A stretch of DNA of 64,000 bases from NCBI RefSeq assembly GCF_020141465.1, contig NZ_JAHSPD010000001.1, positions 2,772,374 through 2,836,373 on the forward strand, written 5' to 3'. The translations under genes were made by a program, and so were the position numbers. Source of the stretch: Roseovarius carneus (GTDB lineage: Bacteria; Pseudomonadota; Alphaproteobacteria; Rhodobacterales; Rhodobacteraceae). Positions 9,875-64,000 of the stretch are shown here, one piece after another (position 1 is the stretch's first letter; each line of letters starts with the position of its first letter). A model generated the notes under the pieces. It saw only the letters and a program-made list of their open reading frames with translations. It had not been told where the DNA came from and did no database searches.

Positions 9875-11056
9875 TCAGACTTCGCTTTTGAGCTTTTCCA
9901 CCAGATCCGTGCGTTCCCAGCTAAAGCCGCCATCGGCATCTGGCGTCCGGCCAAAGTGGCCATAGGCCGCCGTCCGCTGATAGATGGGGCGGTTCAGCGA
10001 GAGATGCTCGCGGATGCCACGAGGCGTGAGATCCATGGATTTCCCAATGGCTTTCTCGATCGCGGCCGGGGACACGTCATCGGTGCCGTGGCAATCCACA
10101 TAGATCGAGAGCGGTTTGCTCACTCCGATCGCGTAGCTGAGCTGGATTGTGCAACGCTCCGCCATGCCTGCGGCAACTACGTTTTTCGCGAGATAGCGCG
10201 CGGCATAGGCGGCCGAGCGGTCCACTTTCGTCGGGTCTTTACCCGAGAACGCGCCACCGCCATGGGGCGCCGCACCGCCATACGTGTCCACGATGATCTT
10301 GCGCCCCGTGAGGCCTGCATCGCCATCGGGGCCGCCGATCACGAATTTTCCGGTGGGGTTCACGTGCCATTCGGTTTGCGGCGTGATCCAGCCTTCGGGC
10401 AGGACCTCAAGGATGTAGGGCTCGACCATAGCGCGGATATCGGCGGAGGTCAGCGCCTCATCGAGGTGCTGTGTGCTGAGCACGAGCGAGCTGATGCCCA
10501 TCGGAACGCCGTCTTTGTAGATCACCGAAAGCTGGCTTTTTGCGTCCGGGCCAAGCGCGGGCTCGGTGCCATCTTTGCGCACTTCGGCAAGGCGGCGCAG
10601 GATGGCGTGGCTGAACTGAATGGGCGCGGGCATGAGCGCGTCGGTCTCTGTCGTGGCATAGCCGAACATGATGCCTTGATCGCCCGCACCTTCATCCTTG
10701 CCCGAGGCCGCATCGACCCCTTGGGCGATATGCGCGGATTGTTCGTGCAGAAGGTTGGTGATTTCACAGGTTTTCCAGTGGAACTTCTCCTGCTCGTACC
10801 CGATATCCTTGATGCAGGCGCGGGCGATGTCTTCGATCCTGCCCATGTAATCGTGCAGCTTGTCGGGGTCCGAGAGGCCCACCTCGCCGCCGATGATCAC
10901 GCGGTTGGTGGTGGCGAAGGTCTCGGTAGCCACGCGGGCTTCGGGCTCTTCTGCGATAAAAGCGTCAAGGACGGCATCGGAAATGCGGTCGCAGACTTTA
11001 TCCGGGTGCCCCTCCGAAACGGATTCGGAGGTGAGGGTGTAGTTCTGTCGTGCCAT
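9875..11056 (-). CDS. metK: S-adenosylmethionine synthetase
   Basis: Makes SAM from methionine and ATP in the cytoplasm. The 393-residue protein starting [18 protein letters not shown] has the ATP-binding [18 protein letters not shown] near residue 15, [16 protein letters not shown] near 115, and the P-loop-like [16 protein letters not shown] near 260. I chose the ATG at 11056 because it begins the family consensus and follows a GGAG ribosome site that is part of a riboswitch; the longer frame to 11086 would overlap that RNA. Regulation is by the SAM/SAH-type riboswitch immediately upstream. Confidence 0.97.
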
Positions 11057-58514: not shown

Positions 58515-59110
58515 TGCGTTAATCTGAGTTATATCCGGCAGTCTTGATAAAGCTCCAACCTTCTTGCGATCGCAGAGATCGCATATGCCTCCAAGGGCTT
58601 CTAACAAGGCGTAGAAGGTTCTGATCCCAATCCACCGCAAGTGGGCTTTAAGCTTTGAGAAGACCATCTCGGTAGGATTGAGGTCGGGGCTCTAGGGCGA
58701 CAGGAACCAGAGCCAGCTACTATGTCTTCTCAGGACCTCGGCGGCGCGCGGGCTCTTGCGGGTGGAAAGGGTACCCCTTGCCCGGCAACCGCTGCTTGCC
58801 GCCATGAAAGTTGCACCAGCACCCCTTTCGTTTCAGACAGTGCGGCGGCCAGTTCCTTCAAAGTAATGTCAGGTTCAGCACGCAAGATGACGAGAAAGAC
58901 GTCGCGATGCGGGGCAAGCCTGCCAAAACGTCCCAGCGACCTGCCTTGTCGTTTTGCAGCGACCAAGCCCCGCGTCCGATACTCCGCCGCAAACCGCACA
59001 GCCGTAGCAGGACTGGCACAAAACACCCGTCCGGCAGTGCGCGCCGAGTGCCCTTTCGCCACATAATCACAAATCCGTTGCCGAAGGTCCAAAGAATAAG
59101 GCTTGCCCAT
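58515..59110 (-). pseudogene. IS630-family transposase remnant
   Basis: The N-terminal part (MGKPYSLDLRQRICDYVAKG, helix-turn-helix, RSLGRFGRLAPHRDVF) runs from ATG 59110 to about 58730. The C-terminal part (SPDLNPTEMVFSKLKAHLR, GGICDLCDRKKVGALSRL) lies at about 58515-58700. The central catalytic region is missing, and a TAG replaces the Tyr codon of the usual PYSPDLNP motif. The element lies between the att-like site and the left end of the CRISPR array, about 90 bp from the first repeat. Confidence 0.85.
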
Positions 59111-59202: not shown

Positions 59203-62200
59203 GGGGCGGCTGGACCGCGGATTTTGAACAGCTACAATTTGTTTGCGTTAAGGCCAATCACACTCATTGTTGCGGCTGGACCGCGGATTTTGAACAGCTA
59301 CAATACCGGAATGACGCGAAGCGTTCACTGGTCAGTTGCGGCTGGACCGCGGATTTTGAACAGCTACAATGGTGTCTCAGCGCATCGCGGAGGTTGATAC
59401 GTTGCGGCTGGACCGCGGATTTTGAACAGCTACAATGACCACCCCGCCGATCCCAGTGATGAGCTCGTTGCGGCTGGACCGCGGATTTTGAACAGCTACA
59501 ATACGCGACATCGCGGGCCAATATTCTGAATGGTTGCGGCTGGACCGCGGATTTTGAACAGCTACAATGTTCTTCATCTACACGGGACAATGCGGTTTGT
59601 TGCGGCTGGACCGCGGATTTTGAACAGCTACAATCTCAGCGCCCGTGCGAAACAGCGCATCAGTGTTGCGGCTGGACCGCGGATTTTGAACAGCTACAAT
59701 AGATGCAAATGCAGCTCGCGAGTGTCACGGGTTGCGGCTGGACCGCGGATTTTGAACAGCTACAATCTTGACGGGCTGCACGGCCCAGCCGGTCCAGTTG
59801 CGGCTGGACCGCGGATTTTGAACAGCTACAATAGATTGAACCGCAGACCGTTGTGAAGATCAGTTGCGGCTGGACCGCGGATTTTGAACAGCTACAATTT
59901 GATCTTTGTCGTGGATGAAATCGCTTCAGTTGCGGCTGGACCGCGGATTTTGAACAGCTACAATTTGAAAAGCTGGTCCCCGCGCACCTGCCCGTTGCGG
60001 CTGGACCGCGGATTTTGAACAGCTACAATGACGGTCCCAGAGGTCGCGGTAGAGCCTTTGTTGCGGCTGGACCGCGGATTTTGAACAGCTACAATGACGT
60101 GGTAATCAATGCCACCGCCCTCGTCGTTGCGGCTGGACCGCGGATTTTGAACAGCTACAATAGCGTTTTATAACCGGCGTCGGTGACTTCAGTTGCGGCT
60201 GGACCGCGGATTTTGAACAGCTACAATGGTCATGCCCAGCGGAAGCTGCACCGATGGTTGCGGCTGGACCGCGGATTTTGAACAGCTACAATCGGCGGCG
60301 GTGTGATCAGGTGTTTCATGAGGTTGCGGCTGGACCGCGGATTTTGAACAGCTACAATTTATTCATGCGGTCGCCAGCGGTCCAGCCAGTTGCGGCTGGA
60401 CCGCGGATTTTGAACAGCTACAATCTGGCGAGGCTCACATGATCTACCGCACCAGTTGCGGCTGGACCGCGGATTTTGAACAGCTACAATCCACGGGAGC
60501 AGCTCCTCGGGGCACGTGTCGTTGCGGCTGGACCGCGGATTTTGAACAGCTACAATGCCACCCGCAAAGTGACATTCACGGCCGGCGTTGCGGCTGGACC
60601 GCGGATTTTGAACAGCTACAATATACGCCGAGGAGGATGCGCAGTTTAGCGCGTTGCGGCTGGACCGCGGATTTTGAACAGCTACAATGGTCGAGCCTCA
60701 AACCGTTGTGAAGATCGGTTGCGGCTGGACCGCGGATTTTGAACAGCTACAATCGCCTACCAAGAGGGCCGTATGAGCGATACGTTGCGGCTGGACCGCG
60801 GATTTTGAACAGCTACAATTTCGCAGATGATGAGGAGGATGCCTAATGCAGTTGCGGCTGGACCGCGGATTTTGAACAGCTACAATCGCAAAGCGCGGCT
60901 GATGGAGCTGGAGCCAGTTGCGGCTGGACCGCGGATTTTGAACAGCTACAATGACACCCGCAAAGTGACATTCACGGCCTGCGTTGCGGCTGGACCGCGG
61001 ATTTTGAACAGCTACAATTGCAGTCCAGCCATCATGCTACTCCGTGTGGTTGCGGCTGGACCGCGGATTTTGAACAGCTACAATTCGAACCGATCCGCAG
61101 CGGCCCTGGCAAAATGTTGCGGCTGGACCGCGGATTTTGAACAGCTACAATCGGCAATGATCGCGGCGGTGCGCCGCTTGCGTTGCGGCTGGACCGCGGA
61201 TTTTGAACAGCTACAATGAAGGCCCCGTGCGGCGGAAAGATCGCGCTGTTGCGGCTGGACCGCGGATTTTGAACAGCTACAATTAAATTATGGCGCGCAG
61301 GGCGCAGGCGATCGTTGCGGCTGGACCGCGGATTTTGAACAGCTACAATCACGAGCCTGTAGACATAGCTGCGCCCCTTGTTGCGGCTGGACCGCGGATT
61401 TTGAACAGCTACAATTGGCGCTTCACACTGATCGCTGGACGGGGGGTTGCGGCTGGACCGCGGATTTTGAACAGCTACAATCGACCACCCTCCTCGTGGG
61501 ACTTGCCCTCAGTTGCGGCTGGACCGCGGATTTTGAACAGCTACAATACCATGCAACTGAAAGACGCGAAACCCGGTGTTGCGGCTGGACCGCGGATTTT
61601 GAACAGCTACAATGCGCGGGGTGCAGGAGCTCGAGGCTCACCTGTTGCGGCTGGACCGCGGATTTTGAACAGCTACAATCCGCGAGGTTGTCTCAAGAGC
61701 AACCGCCCCGTTGCGGCTGGACCGCGGATTTTGAACAGCTACAATGGCGGCTGATAGCATCCGCCAGTGGGCGCAGTTGCGGCTGGACCGCGGATTTTGA
61801 ACAGCTACAATACATGAAGGCGACCGTCTATGCTGACGGCAGTTGCGGCTGGACCGCGGATTTTGAACAGCTACAATCACGCCCCTGCGCCTCCAGTGCC
61901 TCGCGCAGTTGCGGCTGGACCGCGGATTTTGAACAGCTACAATGGTAAAGGCCGGTGATGCAGCGGCATCGCTGTTGCGGCTGGACCGCGGATTTTGAAC
62001 AGCTACAATAGTGATCGCACTGGATCAGGGCACCTATCAGTTGCGGCTGGACCGCGGATTTTGAACAGCTACAATCTGGCGTGTAATATTCAGCAAGGCG
62101 CTTGGTTGCGGCTGGACCGCGGATTTTGAACAGCTACAATCCCATAATCTCCGATTCTTCGGTCTTGCCGTTGCGGCTGGACCGCGGATTTTGAACAGCT

Positions 62201-63194
62201 ACAATAGTTGTCTAATGGCAAAACCGACTAAACCTGTTGCGGCTGGACCGCGGATTTTGAACAGCTACAATCGCCGTGAAACCATCATCTTCGGCACTGG
62301 CGTTGCGGCTGGACCGCGGATTTTGAACAGCTACAATAAGGCATTTGTCCCGGCCACGTTGCAGACCGTTGCGGCTGGACCGCGGATTTTGAACAGCTAC
62401 AATTGGATGAAGAACGGCAGATCCGTCGATGAGTTGCGGCTGGACCGCGGATTTTGAACAGCTACAATCCGAAATGCAGCCTTTACATGTGCGCGCGCGT
62501 TGCGGCTGGACCGCGGATTTTGAACAGCTACAATAAGTGCATCCCTTTCCCGTTGCAGTGCCAGGTTGCGGCTGGACCGCGGATTTTGAACAGCTACAAT
62601 GCGCAAAACGGTGATGCTGTCGGGTCGGAAGTTGCGGCTGGACCGCGGATTTTGAACAGCTACAATCGAATCACCAGCGAATCGGGGGTGTTTCTAGTTG
62701 CGGCTGGACCGCGGATTTTGAACAGCTACAATGGCGCCTTGGGAAAACTGCACGAACTTATAGTTGCGGCTGGACCGCGGATTTTGAACAGCTACAATTT
62801 TGATCGGGCGCGCAACGATATGCAGACGGTTGCGGCTGGACCGCGGATTTTGAACAGCTACAATTTTTCGTTTGTGCGGTCCTTCTATGTGGTTGTTGCG
62901 GCTGGACCGCGGATTTTGAACAGCTACAATTGTGACGGTTGACCAGTTTCTTGGCGAGGCGTTGCGGCTGGACCGCGGATTTTGAACAGCTACAATGCAA
63001 AAAATCCAGGCAAGTCAGCTCATCAAGTTGCGGCTGGACCGCGGATTTTGAACAGCTACAATGCCTCTAACGCCCGCACCGGCGGCTGGTCAGTTGCGGC
63101 TGGACCGCGGATTTTGAACAGCTACAATCAATGGTCTCCGCATGGCTCATTTCTGGAAGTTGCGGCTGGACCGCGGATTTTGAACAGCTACAAT
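59203..63194 (+). CRISPR. CRISPR array, 61 repeats / 60 spacers, type II-C-like
   Basis: Repeat of 36 bp beginning GTTGCGGCTGGACCGCGG and ending GAACAGCTACAAT. I counted 61 units; spacers are 30 bp (52), 29 bp (six) and 31 bp (two). All repeats read identical except the first, whose positions 2-3 are GG instead of TT. The ends are partly complementary (GTTGCGGCTG against CAGCTACAAT). GTTG start and GCTACAAT end match Neisseria-type II-C repeats in orientation, so crRNA transcription should run rightward, towards cas2. Each repeat contains TGGACC-16 bp-TACAAT, a promoter-like pair. Frames such as CGWTADFEQLQ across it are repeat artefacts. Confidence 0.97.
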
Positions 63195-63267: not shown

Positions 63268-63612
63268 TCAAAACATTACCAGTTGTTCCGGATTCTTTCG
63301 GGCCTTACGTCGACCCTGATCCGAGAAGTGAACGATATCACGATATTGTCGATCCGTAAAATTCAGAATCTGCACGTCCCCCGAATCGGGTAAATGGCGT
63401 GAAATCCGGTTCACACGGGTCTGAAACGCCTCTTTGCCGTTTACGAAACGGGCATAGACGGAAAACTGGCTGCGCTCGAAGCCCTCATCCAGCAAAAAAT
63501 TACGGAATTTTCCGGCGGCCTTGCGCTGAGGTTTGGTGTCGGTCGGAAGGTCGAACATCACAAGAATCCACATCAGACGATACCCCGATAAAACTTTGAT
63601 TTCATGGTTCAT
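63268..63612 (-). CDS. cas2: CRISPR-associated endonuclease Cas2
   Basis: 114-residue adaptor subunit of the Cas1-Cas2 spacer integrase. It starts MNHEIKVLSGYRLMWILVMF with the ferredoxin-fold strand ending in the conserved Asp of MFDLPTDTK, then FRNFLLDEGFERSQFSVYAR and GDVQILNFTDRQY. The form with an N-terminal LSGYR extension is typical of type II-C loci. The ATG overlaps the cas1 stop (ATGA), so both are co-translated. The longer open frame upstream is the shadow of cas1. Confidence 0.95.
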   Translation of the reverse strand: MNHEIKVLSGYRLMWILVMFDLPTDTKPQRKAAGKFRNFLLDEGFERSQFSVYARFVNGKEAFQTRVNRISRHLPDSGDVQILNFTDRQYRDIVHFSDQGRRKARKNPEQLVMF

Positions 63613-64000
63613 GCCCCCAACCCCGCAAGTGTCAGTGGGCCGGGCGTGTTTGGCAGGGCCAGCGCAAGCCTGCCCTCCTCGAAACTTTGGCCCAGTGACG
63701 TGGCCAGCTTCATTACCGCCACAGAGACAGGCGTGACACCCTCCCCCAAAGGCAGGTCCGTGGCAATCAGGCGTGCGAGTGCCTGCTTCGCCGCTGTGTC
63801 GACCTCTGCACCACGCGTCACGACGATGTTGCGCACCGCGCAATCCACCAGCGGGCGGAAGGGTTCCATCAGGTCATCGGCAAGTGCAAAGGCGTTGGAT
63901 CTGTTGGAATGAAACAACCCGATCGTCGGGTGCAAACCGGCAGCAACAACAGCTCGCGCAGTGGCAGCGCGCAGCACGGTATAGCCATAGTTCAGCAGAG
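63609..64000 (-). CDS. cas1: CRISPR-associated endonuclease Cas1, C-terminal part
   Basis: The last 129 residues are in the window; the 5' part lies beyond 64000. The C-terminal catalytic helices are visible: LLNYGYTVLRAATARAV, AGLHPTIGLFH with the metal-binding His, and ALADDLMEPFRPLVD with the metal-binding acid. Cas1 cuts and joins new spacers into the array with Cas2. In type II-C loci cas9 normally precedes cas1, so it is expected immediately to the right. Confidence 0.95.
   Translation of the reverse strand, partial: LLNYGYTVLRAATARAVVAAGLHPTIGLFHSNRSNAFALADDLMEPFRPLVDCAVRNIVVTRGAEVDTAAKQALARLIATDLPLGEGVTPVSVAVMKLATSLGQSFEEGRLALALPNTPGPLTLAGLGA

Follow-up and report, generated by a model that had tools for sequence, protein, structure and literature searches.

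Near the end of the 64,000-nt stretch of Roseovarius carneus DNA analysed here (the window), one spacer of a CRISPR array carries an exact complement of the repeat that follows it, which raises the question of whether this spacer is a captured piece of a tracrRNA, a selected regulator, a guide disabled by its own sequence, or an ordinary spacer that matches its repeat by accident. Bases 60377-60387, within spacer 18, are the exact reverse complement of 60394-60404 (11 nt), and the loop between them (60388-60393, AGTTGC) is 6 nt long. The earlier note had described this complementarity, and its coordinates, letters and loop length are all exact. The parts of the hairpin are as follows:

60359..60388, plus strand: spacer 18, from a Mu-like phage transposase gene (array parsing, viral contig matches)
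60377..60387, plus strand: hairpin 5' arm, GCGGTCCAGCC, in the PAM-proximal (seed) part of spacer 18
60394..60404, plus strand: hairpin 3' arm, GGCTGGACCGC, at positions 6-16 of the repeat that follows spacer 18, which pair with the tracrRNA across the lower stem and into the upper stem

When all 60 spacers were compared, spacer 18 was the sole one to match the reverse complement of the repeat over at least 9 nt, the second-longest match in the array being one of 8 nt in spacer 28. It is highly probable that spacer 18 is an ordinary phage-derived spacer and its complement a coincidence, with the predicted side effect that crRNA 18 can fold back on its own repeat, which would lower its activity, perhaps without abolishing it.

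The array and its cas genes

The final part of the window is a CRISPR array with the repeat sequence GTTGCGGCTGGACCGCGGATTTTGAACAGCTACAAT, from which a single copy, the first, deviates by two changed bases. The main features of the region are:

59203..63194, plus strand: type II-C CRISPR array made up of 61 repeats (36 nt each) and 60 spacers (29-31 nt)
59203..59238, plus strand: first ('extra') repeat, with two changes within its first four bases
60353..60358, plus strand: TACAAT box, the final six bases of the repeat preceding spacer 18 (consensus match only)
60389..60424, plus strand: repeat downstream of spacer 18, with the promoter-like pair TGGACC-16-TACAAT
63268..63612, minus strand: cas2, 114 aa, start codon picked by inspection within a longer open frame
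63609..64000, minus strand: 3' part of cas1, type II form, running past the window end and followed by cas9, with the tracrRNA upstream of cas9

The first (extra) repeat, 59203-59238, starts GGGG and not GTTG, and the changed bases fall within the part that pairs with tracrRNA; this is in line with published II-C arrays, whose extra repeats tend to be mutated (PMC12080349). A 126-aa frame (58730-59110) shortly before the array resembles the N-terminal part of IS630-type transposases, scoring above the cut-off in Pfam and below it in NCBIfam.

Beyond the array, the gene order on the minus strand is cas2, cas1 (type II form) and cas9, the last with a product of 1071 aa that has HNH and RuvC matches. 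Cas9 (TIGR01865, 546 bits versus a curated cut-off of 100), Cas1 of the type II form (TIGR03639, 232 versus 120) and Cas2 (TIGR01573, 71 versus 24.5) all score above their cut-offs, which bears out the earlier assignment to type II. No cas family match (NCBIfam, E 0.001), and so neither csn2 (II-A) nor cas4 (II-B), was found in nine neighbouring frames, two left of the array and seven beyond cas9; for the ninth, the best 25 of 183 families were all transporter ATPases or alike. With cas9, cas1 and cas2 in a single cluster, as type II-C requires, a tracrRNA candidate, and no csn2 or cas4 in the nine frames, the system is classed by its gene content as type II-C.

The tracrRNA candidate and the direction of the crRNAs

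The tracrRNA candidate, located through matching to the repeat, lies upstream of cas9 on the plus strand, beyond the window (L002, about 10274-10366). An anti-repeat matching the repeat, also required of type II-C, is present in this predicted stretch as TGTTCAAAATCCGCGTCGAGCTGTTAAC; it has a 15-nt perfect block against repeat positions 14-28, and the whole tracrRNA:repeat duplex is predicted at -43.0 kcal/mol. A search of Rfam returned two weak, irrelevant matches and no tracrRNA family for the candidate. In the predicted duplex, repeat positions 6-16 take up most of the imperfect lower stem and extend three pairs into the upper stem.

All 61 repeats (61/61) carry the promoter-like pair TGGACC-16-TACAAT on the plus strand, and the promoter scan gave 62 promoter-like sites for the region versus 2.3 in shuffles; the repeats being copies, these amount to one motif 61 times. 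Promoters carried within II-C repeats have been described (PMC12080349), and the TACAAT box at 60353..60358 is, by consensus match, the likely -10 element of a promoter for crRNA 18. The common flank of the targets is on the 3' side, the PAM side. Because of the tracrRNA strand, the promoter-like pair in the 61 repeats and the 3' target flank, the crRNAs are taken to be read from the plus strand, with the hairpin lying over the seed side. The earlier note had this direction right, and also the placement of the complement in the PAM-proximal 3' part of the spacer and its overlap, in the predicted duplex, with the segment that pairs with tracrRNA.

Phage origin of spacer 18

An exact scan with the 24-nt core of spacer 18 led to four viral contigs, each of which matches 29/30 bases over the whole spacer. 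A 759-aa frame (L004) that matches phrog_310, a transposase, contains the site and is adjoined by a frame for a phrog_296 DNA transposition protein; from this pair the phage family is read here as 'Mu-like'. The complementary strand at the protospacer encodes GWTAGDRMNK, and the word common to the phage and to repeat positions 6-16 is GGC TGG ACC GC, that is, codons for Gly-Trp-Thr-Ala, the spacer being the opposite strand. In some related phages, synonymous changes disrupt the common word.

When the phage family (317 kb) was scanned with all spacers, 11 of the 60 matched with at most 5 mismatches (spacers 1, 4, 5, 7, 8, 17, 18, 19, 21, 22 and 27). A reversed-spacer control gave 0 matches at this threshold and, with 6 mismatches, a single match that came from the array of a relative, and 136 spacers of relatives gave none at up to 7 mismatches and add nothing to the PAM. 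Spacers 12, 20, 25, 26 and 44, with matches at 6-7 mismatches only, were omitted from the PAM count. The 11 flanks, spacer 18 included, give a PAM of NNGATT(G), with 3' flank agreement of 9/11 for G at position 3, 8/11 for A at position 4, 11/11 for T at position 5, 8/11 for T at position 6 and 7/11 for G at position 7; they are not all independent, as spacers 21 and 27 use one site. The flank of spacer 18, GGGATTGT, fits this motif.

Spacers 21 (60557-60586) and 27 (60953-60982) are identical at 28/30 bases, as if acquired twice from variants of the one phage site. Spacers 10 (59833-59862) and 23 (60689-60717) have 15 nt in common towards their 3' ends, ACCGTTGTGAAGATC, which may reflect a second instance of repeated acquisition. 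The spacers matching the phage family all fall within the first 27 (59239-60982), with none among spacers 28-60 at up to 5 mismatches. New spacers join II-C arrays at the last repeat (PMC12080349); by that rule spacers 1-27 would be the oldest part of the array, and spacer 18 would therefore have persisted while some 42 more were acquired, provided that none was lost. Such persistence is no proof for or against activity, since the phage family is also covered by ten further spacers.

The search of phages and plasmids with spacer 18, proposed earlier, thus found a protospacer in four viral contigs and nothing convincing in the record collections, where E-values were at least 2 in the best 20 of 33 phage records and in the best 20 of 28 plasmid records. 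Arthrobacter phages, the best phage row among the matches listed (whole spacer, 83% identity), were not used. The whole array returned three phage records, at E 4. A search of the organism's own genome for the transposase gave no match, an empty answer that is by itself weak proof. The spacer 18 core has no other occurrence in the host genome at up to 3 mismatches, the array copy being the only one.

Spacer 18 therefore has a full-length protospacer (29/30) and a flank agreeing with those of other spacers in the array, as expected of an ordinary spacer; a full-length phage match of this kind, here with the array's common PAM, is the first half of what had been named beforehand as marking the complementarity a coincidence. 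An exact 11-nt complement of the repeat is also what a captured piece of a tracrRNA, or of the anti-repeat of another CRISPR locus, would carry, and the earlier note had considered a tracr-like fragment. That origin has next to no probability. The 11-mer GCGGTCCAGCC is absent from the system's tracrRNA stretch, including its anti-repeat, which refutes a source in the system's own tracrRNA, and the phage gene covers all 30 bases with one mismatch, so that another CRISPR source is unnecessary. Spacer 18 is canonical and not a tracrRNA piece, because of the phage match (29/30), the flank fitting NNGATT(G) and a core found nowhere else in the host genome.

As an ordinary spacer, it would have been taken by Cas1-Cas2 from the transposase gene of a Mu-like phage, adjoining a normal PAM. 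The phage codons for Gly-Trp-Thr-Ala would then happen to spell repeat positions 6-16, and the spacer, bearing the opposite strand, would become their complement.

The last 12 bases of spacer 18 also match the reverse strand of the repeats at 11/12, which would suit a crRNA that targets or binds the repeats of its own array. Over the whole spacer 14/30 bases match, however, the PAM-adjacent base is mismatched, and NNGATT is found at 0/60 repeat sites (the loose form NNRNTK at 18/60). Self-targeting of the array is rejected on PAM and identity, and any such action on the repeats is very unlikely.

Rarity of the complement

A 60-spacer array is expected to contain 0.008 spacers with an anti-repeat match of at least 11 nt when judged from shuffled spacers, 0.009 from host 30-mers and 0.013 from a first-order Markov model. 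The earlier estimate of well under once per array thus holds, at about 0.01 under three nulls. PAM-adjacent 30-mers of the targeted phage family, computed with the commoner repeat variant, give 0.00037 per spacer or about 0.02 per array, a null that is partly circular as it contains the spacer 18 site. The match is rare, yet it was chosen after the fact among many possible oddities.

Arrays with related repeats were gathered from two sources: a family search, in which 11/394 genomes (the organism's own included) had a repeat match and from which ten further stretches were taken (two of them a single match and no array), and a scan of genome contigs, which gave 35 stretches. Of these 46 loci (the own array, the 10 and the 35), those with fewer than three spacers were excluded, repeat intervals outside 60-75 nt were omitted and duplicate spacers discarded, leaving 583 distinct spacers from 29 array loci, some genomes contributing two. 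One spacer among the 583 has a match of at least 11 nt, versus 0.07 expected from shuffles, and 6.5% of 200 shuffles reach one.

Anti-repeat matches of at least 8 nt number 13 versus 5.3 from shuffles, and 0/200 shuffles reach 13. This excess is probably mostly a matter of composition, because PAM-adjacent phage DNA gives a higher expectation (about 7.6, or 0.0131 x 583) and sense matches of at least 8 nt, of which there are 10, also exceed shuffles. The match lies 1 nt from the spacer end in spacer 18 and 7 to 21 nt from it in the other twelve, so that among the 583 spacers no other match of at least 8 nt adjoins the repeat.

This last result bears on whether selection has made the hairpin a regulator, comparable to the leader-repeat hairpins by which extraneous crRNA is silenced. 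The complement does sit just upstream of a repeat, in a geometry similar to that described for II-A and type VI leaders. Those inhibitory hairpins stand upstream of the first repeat and recur in relatives, whereas this one belongs to an ordinary phage-derived spacer in the array interior (spacer 18 of 60), and no other of the 583 spacers has a match of at least 8 nt adjoining the repeat; earlier work moreover did not observe leader-repeat hairpins in II-C systems (PMC12080349). Selection for regulation is accordingly judged highly improbable. The hairpin is followed by GGATTTTG, which invites a reading as terminator; the terminator scan lists none at the site, and the idea was rejected.

Some considerations count against coincidence. 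A chance origin means accepting roughly a 1-in-100 event, picked after the fact. The excess of anti-repeat matches of at least 8 nt over shuffles is another. Shorter or imperfect pairing of seed and repeat is also predicted elsewhere, and spacer 9 of the same array may be a shorter version of the spacer 18 geometry. Spacer 9 (59767-59796) also ends in a repeat-complementary word, with a predicted helix of 8 pairs, one of them via the first base of the repeat, and has the fourth lowest MFE of the 583.

Predicted effect on crRNA 18

Guides were folded as 24 nt of spacer plus 24 nt of repeat, and the energies take no account of Cas9 or RNase III. Both among the 60 and among the 583, spacer 18 ranks lowest in MFE (-27.2; mean of its own array -14.5, sd 4.1) and in predicted seed accessibility (0.08). 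In the best fold predicted with tracrRNA added, 9 hairpin pairs and 14 contiguous upper-stem pairs remain and the lower stem is lost. Imposing the canonical duplex on crRNA 18 costs 4.9 kcal/mol at full length (2nd of 60) and 4.5 kcal/mol in the processed form (1st, the largest, of 60). The self-blocking that had been suggested earlier is upheld as a prediction: crRNA 18 would fold onto the repeat it carries, so that the seed is covered and the lower crRNA:tracrRNA stem gives way to the hairpin, and this may lower its activity without abolishing it.

The predicted misfold is not unique, which counts against the explanation favoured here. Spacer 23 has a higher full-length penalty (5.3) and spacer 21 a nearly equal seed accessibility (0.09); across the 583 spacers, the seed is less than 20% open in 3.95%. 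There is no depletion of structured spacers among the 583. Compared with shuffled sequences, natural spacers show slightly more structure (Mann-Whitney P 0.029 for energy, 0.007 for seed), but they show no more than their own reverse complements (P 0.70 and 0.16), and no claim is made of selection for or against structured spacers.

A stronger effect would be that the hairpin forms co-transcriptionally and blocks both the lower-stem pairing and the seed, leaving crRNA 18 a self-silenced, dead memory that gives no protection. The origin of the complement would still be accidental, so that this overlaps with the ordinary-spacer explanation and differs from it in degree. The extreme energy, seed accessibility and scaffold penalties point in this direction, as do several published cases. 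Spacer-backbone interactions can inactivate guides (PMC8789806). Poor clearance by an FnCas12a array was associated with a hairpin that spanned two spacers, and mutations that broke this hairpin improved clearance (PMC6610086). For an extraneous RNA of the C. jejuni II-C system, a guide hairpin stopped targeting in a cell-free assay and a hairpin-breaking version silenced 4-fold (PMC12080349); that hairpin, however, joins guide and upstream RNA and not spacer and repeat, and may also be a terminator according to its authors. Loading of crRNA 18 may still start at the 14 tracrRNA upper-stem pairs that survive in the predicted fold, and the energies leave out the proteins that would act on it. 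With SpCas9, editing still reached 22.6% for a spacer made as the perfect complement of the crRNA 3' end (PMC8789806), and 1.9% in the same report for one forming a perfect hairpin with itself. Complete silencing is thus a real possibility, though not the expected one. The published tests point both ways, and we infer partial impairment of crRNA 18. It can be held only tentatively that one guide of this natural array is put out of action by its own sequence, that acquisition runs without a screen against repeat-complementary spacers, and that a dead memory was kept through ~42 acquisitions while neighbouring spacers against the same phage carry the immunity.

Comparison with known systems

Spacer 18 resembles other phage-derived II-C spacers of Rhodobacteraceae: its repeat belongs to a family common to arrays in records named Rhodobacteraceae and in genera of that group, and these arrays, recognised by their repeats, have spacers of ~30 nt. 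The array also follows the II-C pattern in its adjoining cas9-cas1-cas2 genes, the promoter-like pair in every repeat and the phage protospacers with a common 3' flank. Spacer 18 differs in that it happens to contain an 11-nt complement of the adjoining repeat. Among the titles listed by literature searches on spacer-repeat hairpins and self-complementary crRNA, none described a natural spacer with such repeat complementarity, which is not to claim its absence from print. Spacer 18 serves mostly as a control, showing how a phage gene can by chance yield a spacer with a striking complement to the repeat. Spacers 17, 18 and 19 match one phage family and only spacer 18 of the three is among the most structured listed; the array is in this respect a small natural experiment on whether native Cas9 immunity is weakened when a spacer pairs with its repeat.

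One likeness for the fold is with self-structured or misfolded Cas9 guides (Riesenberg et al. 2022, PMC8789806), which likewise involve pairing of a spacer with the constant crRNA region; the worst-case target III of that study is a spacer complementary to the crRNA 3' end. Those guides were designed, for genome editing in human cells, whereas spacer 18 is natural and type II-C, with an effect that is predicted only. A second likeness is with the leader-repeat hairpins and guide hairpins that silence extraneous crRNA (PMC12080349, PMC13187072), where upstream sequence folds onto repeat or guide and can block the formation or use of a crRNA. They are found at the array start and recur across systems, while the spacer 18 hairpin is in the array interior and belongs to one phage-derived spacer. 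The complement in spacer 18 looks like a coincidence and not a new device, one that may weaken a single guide RNA.
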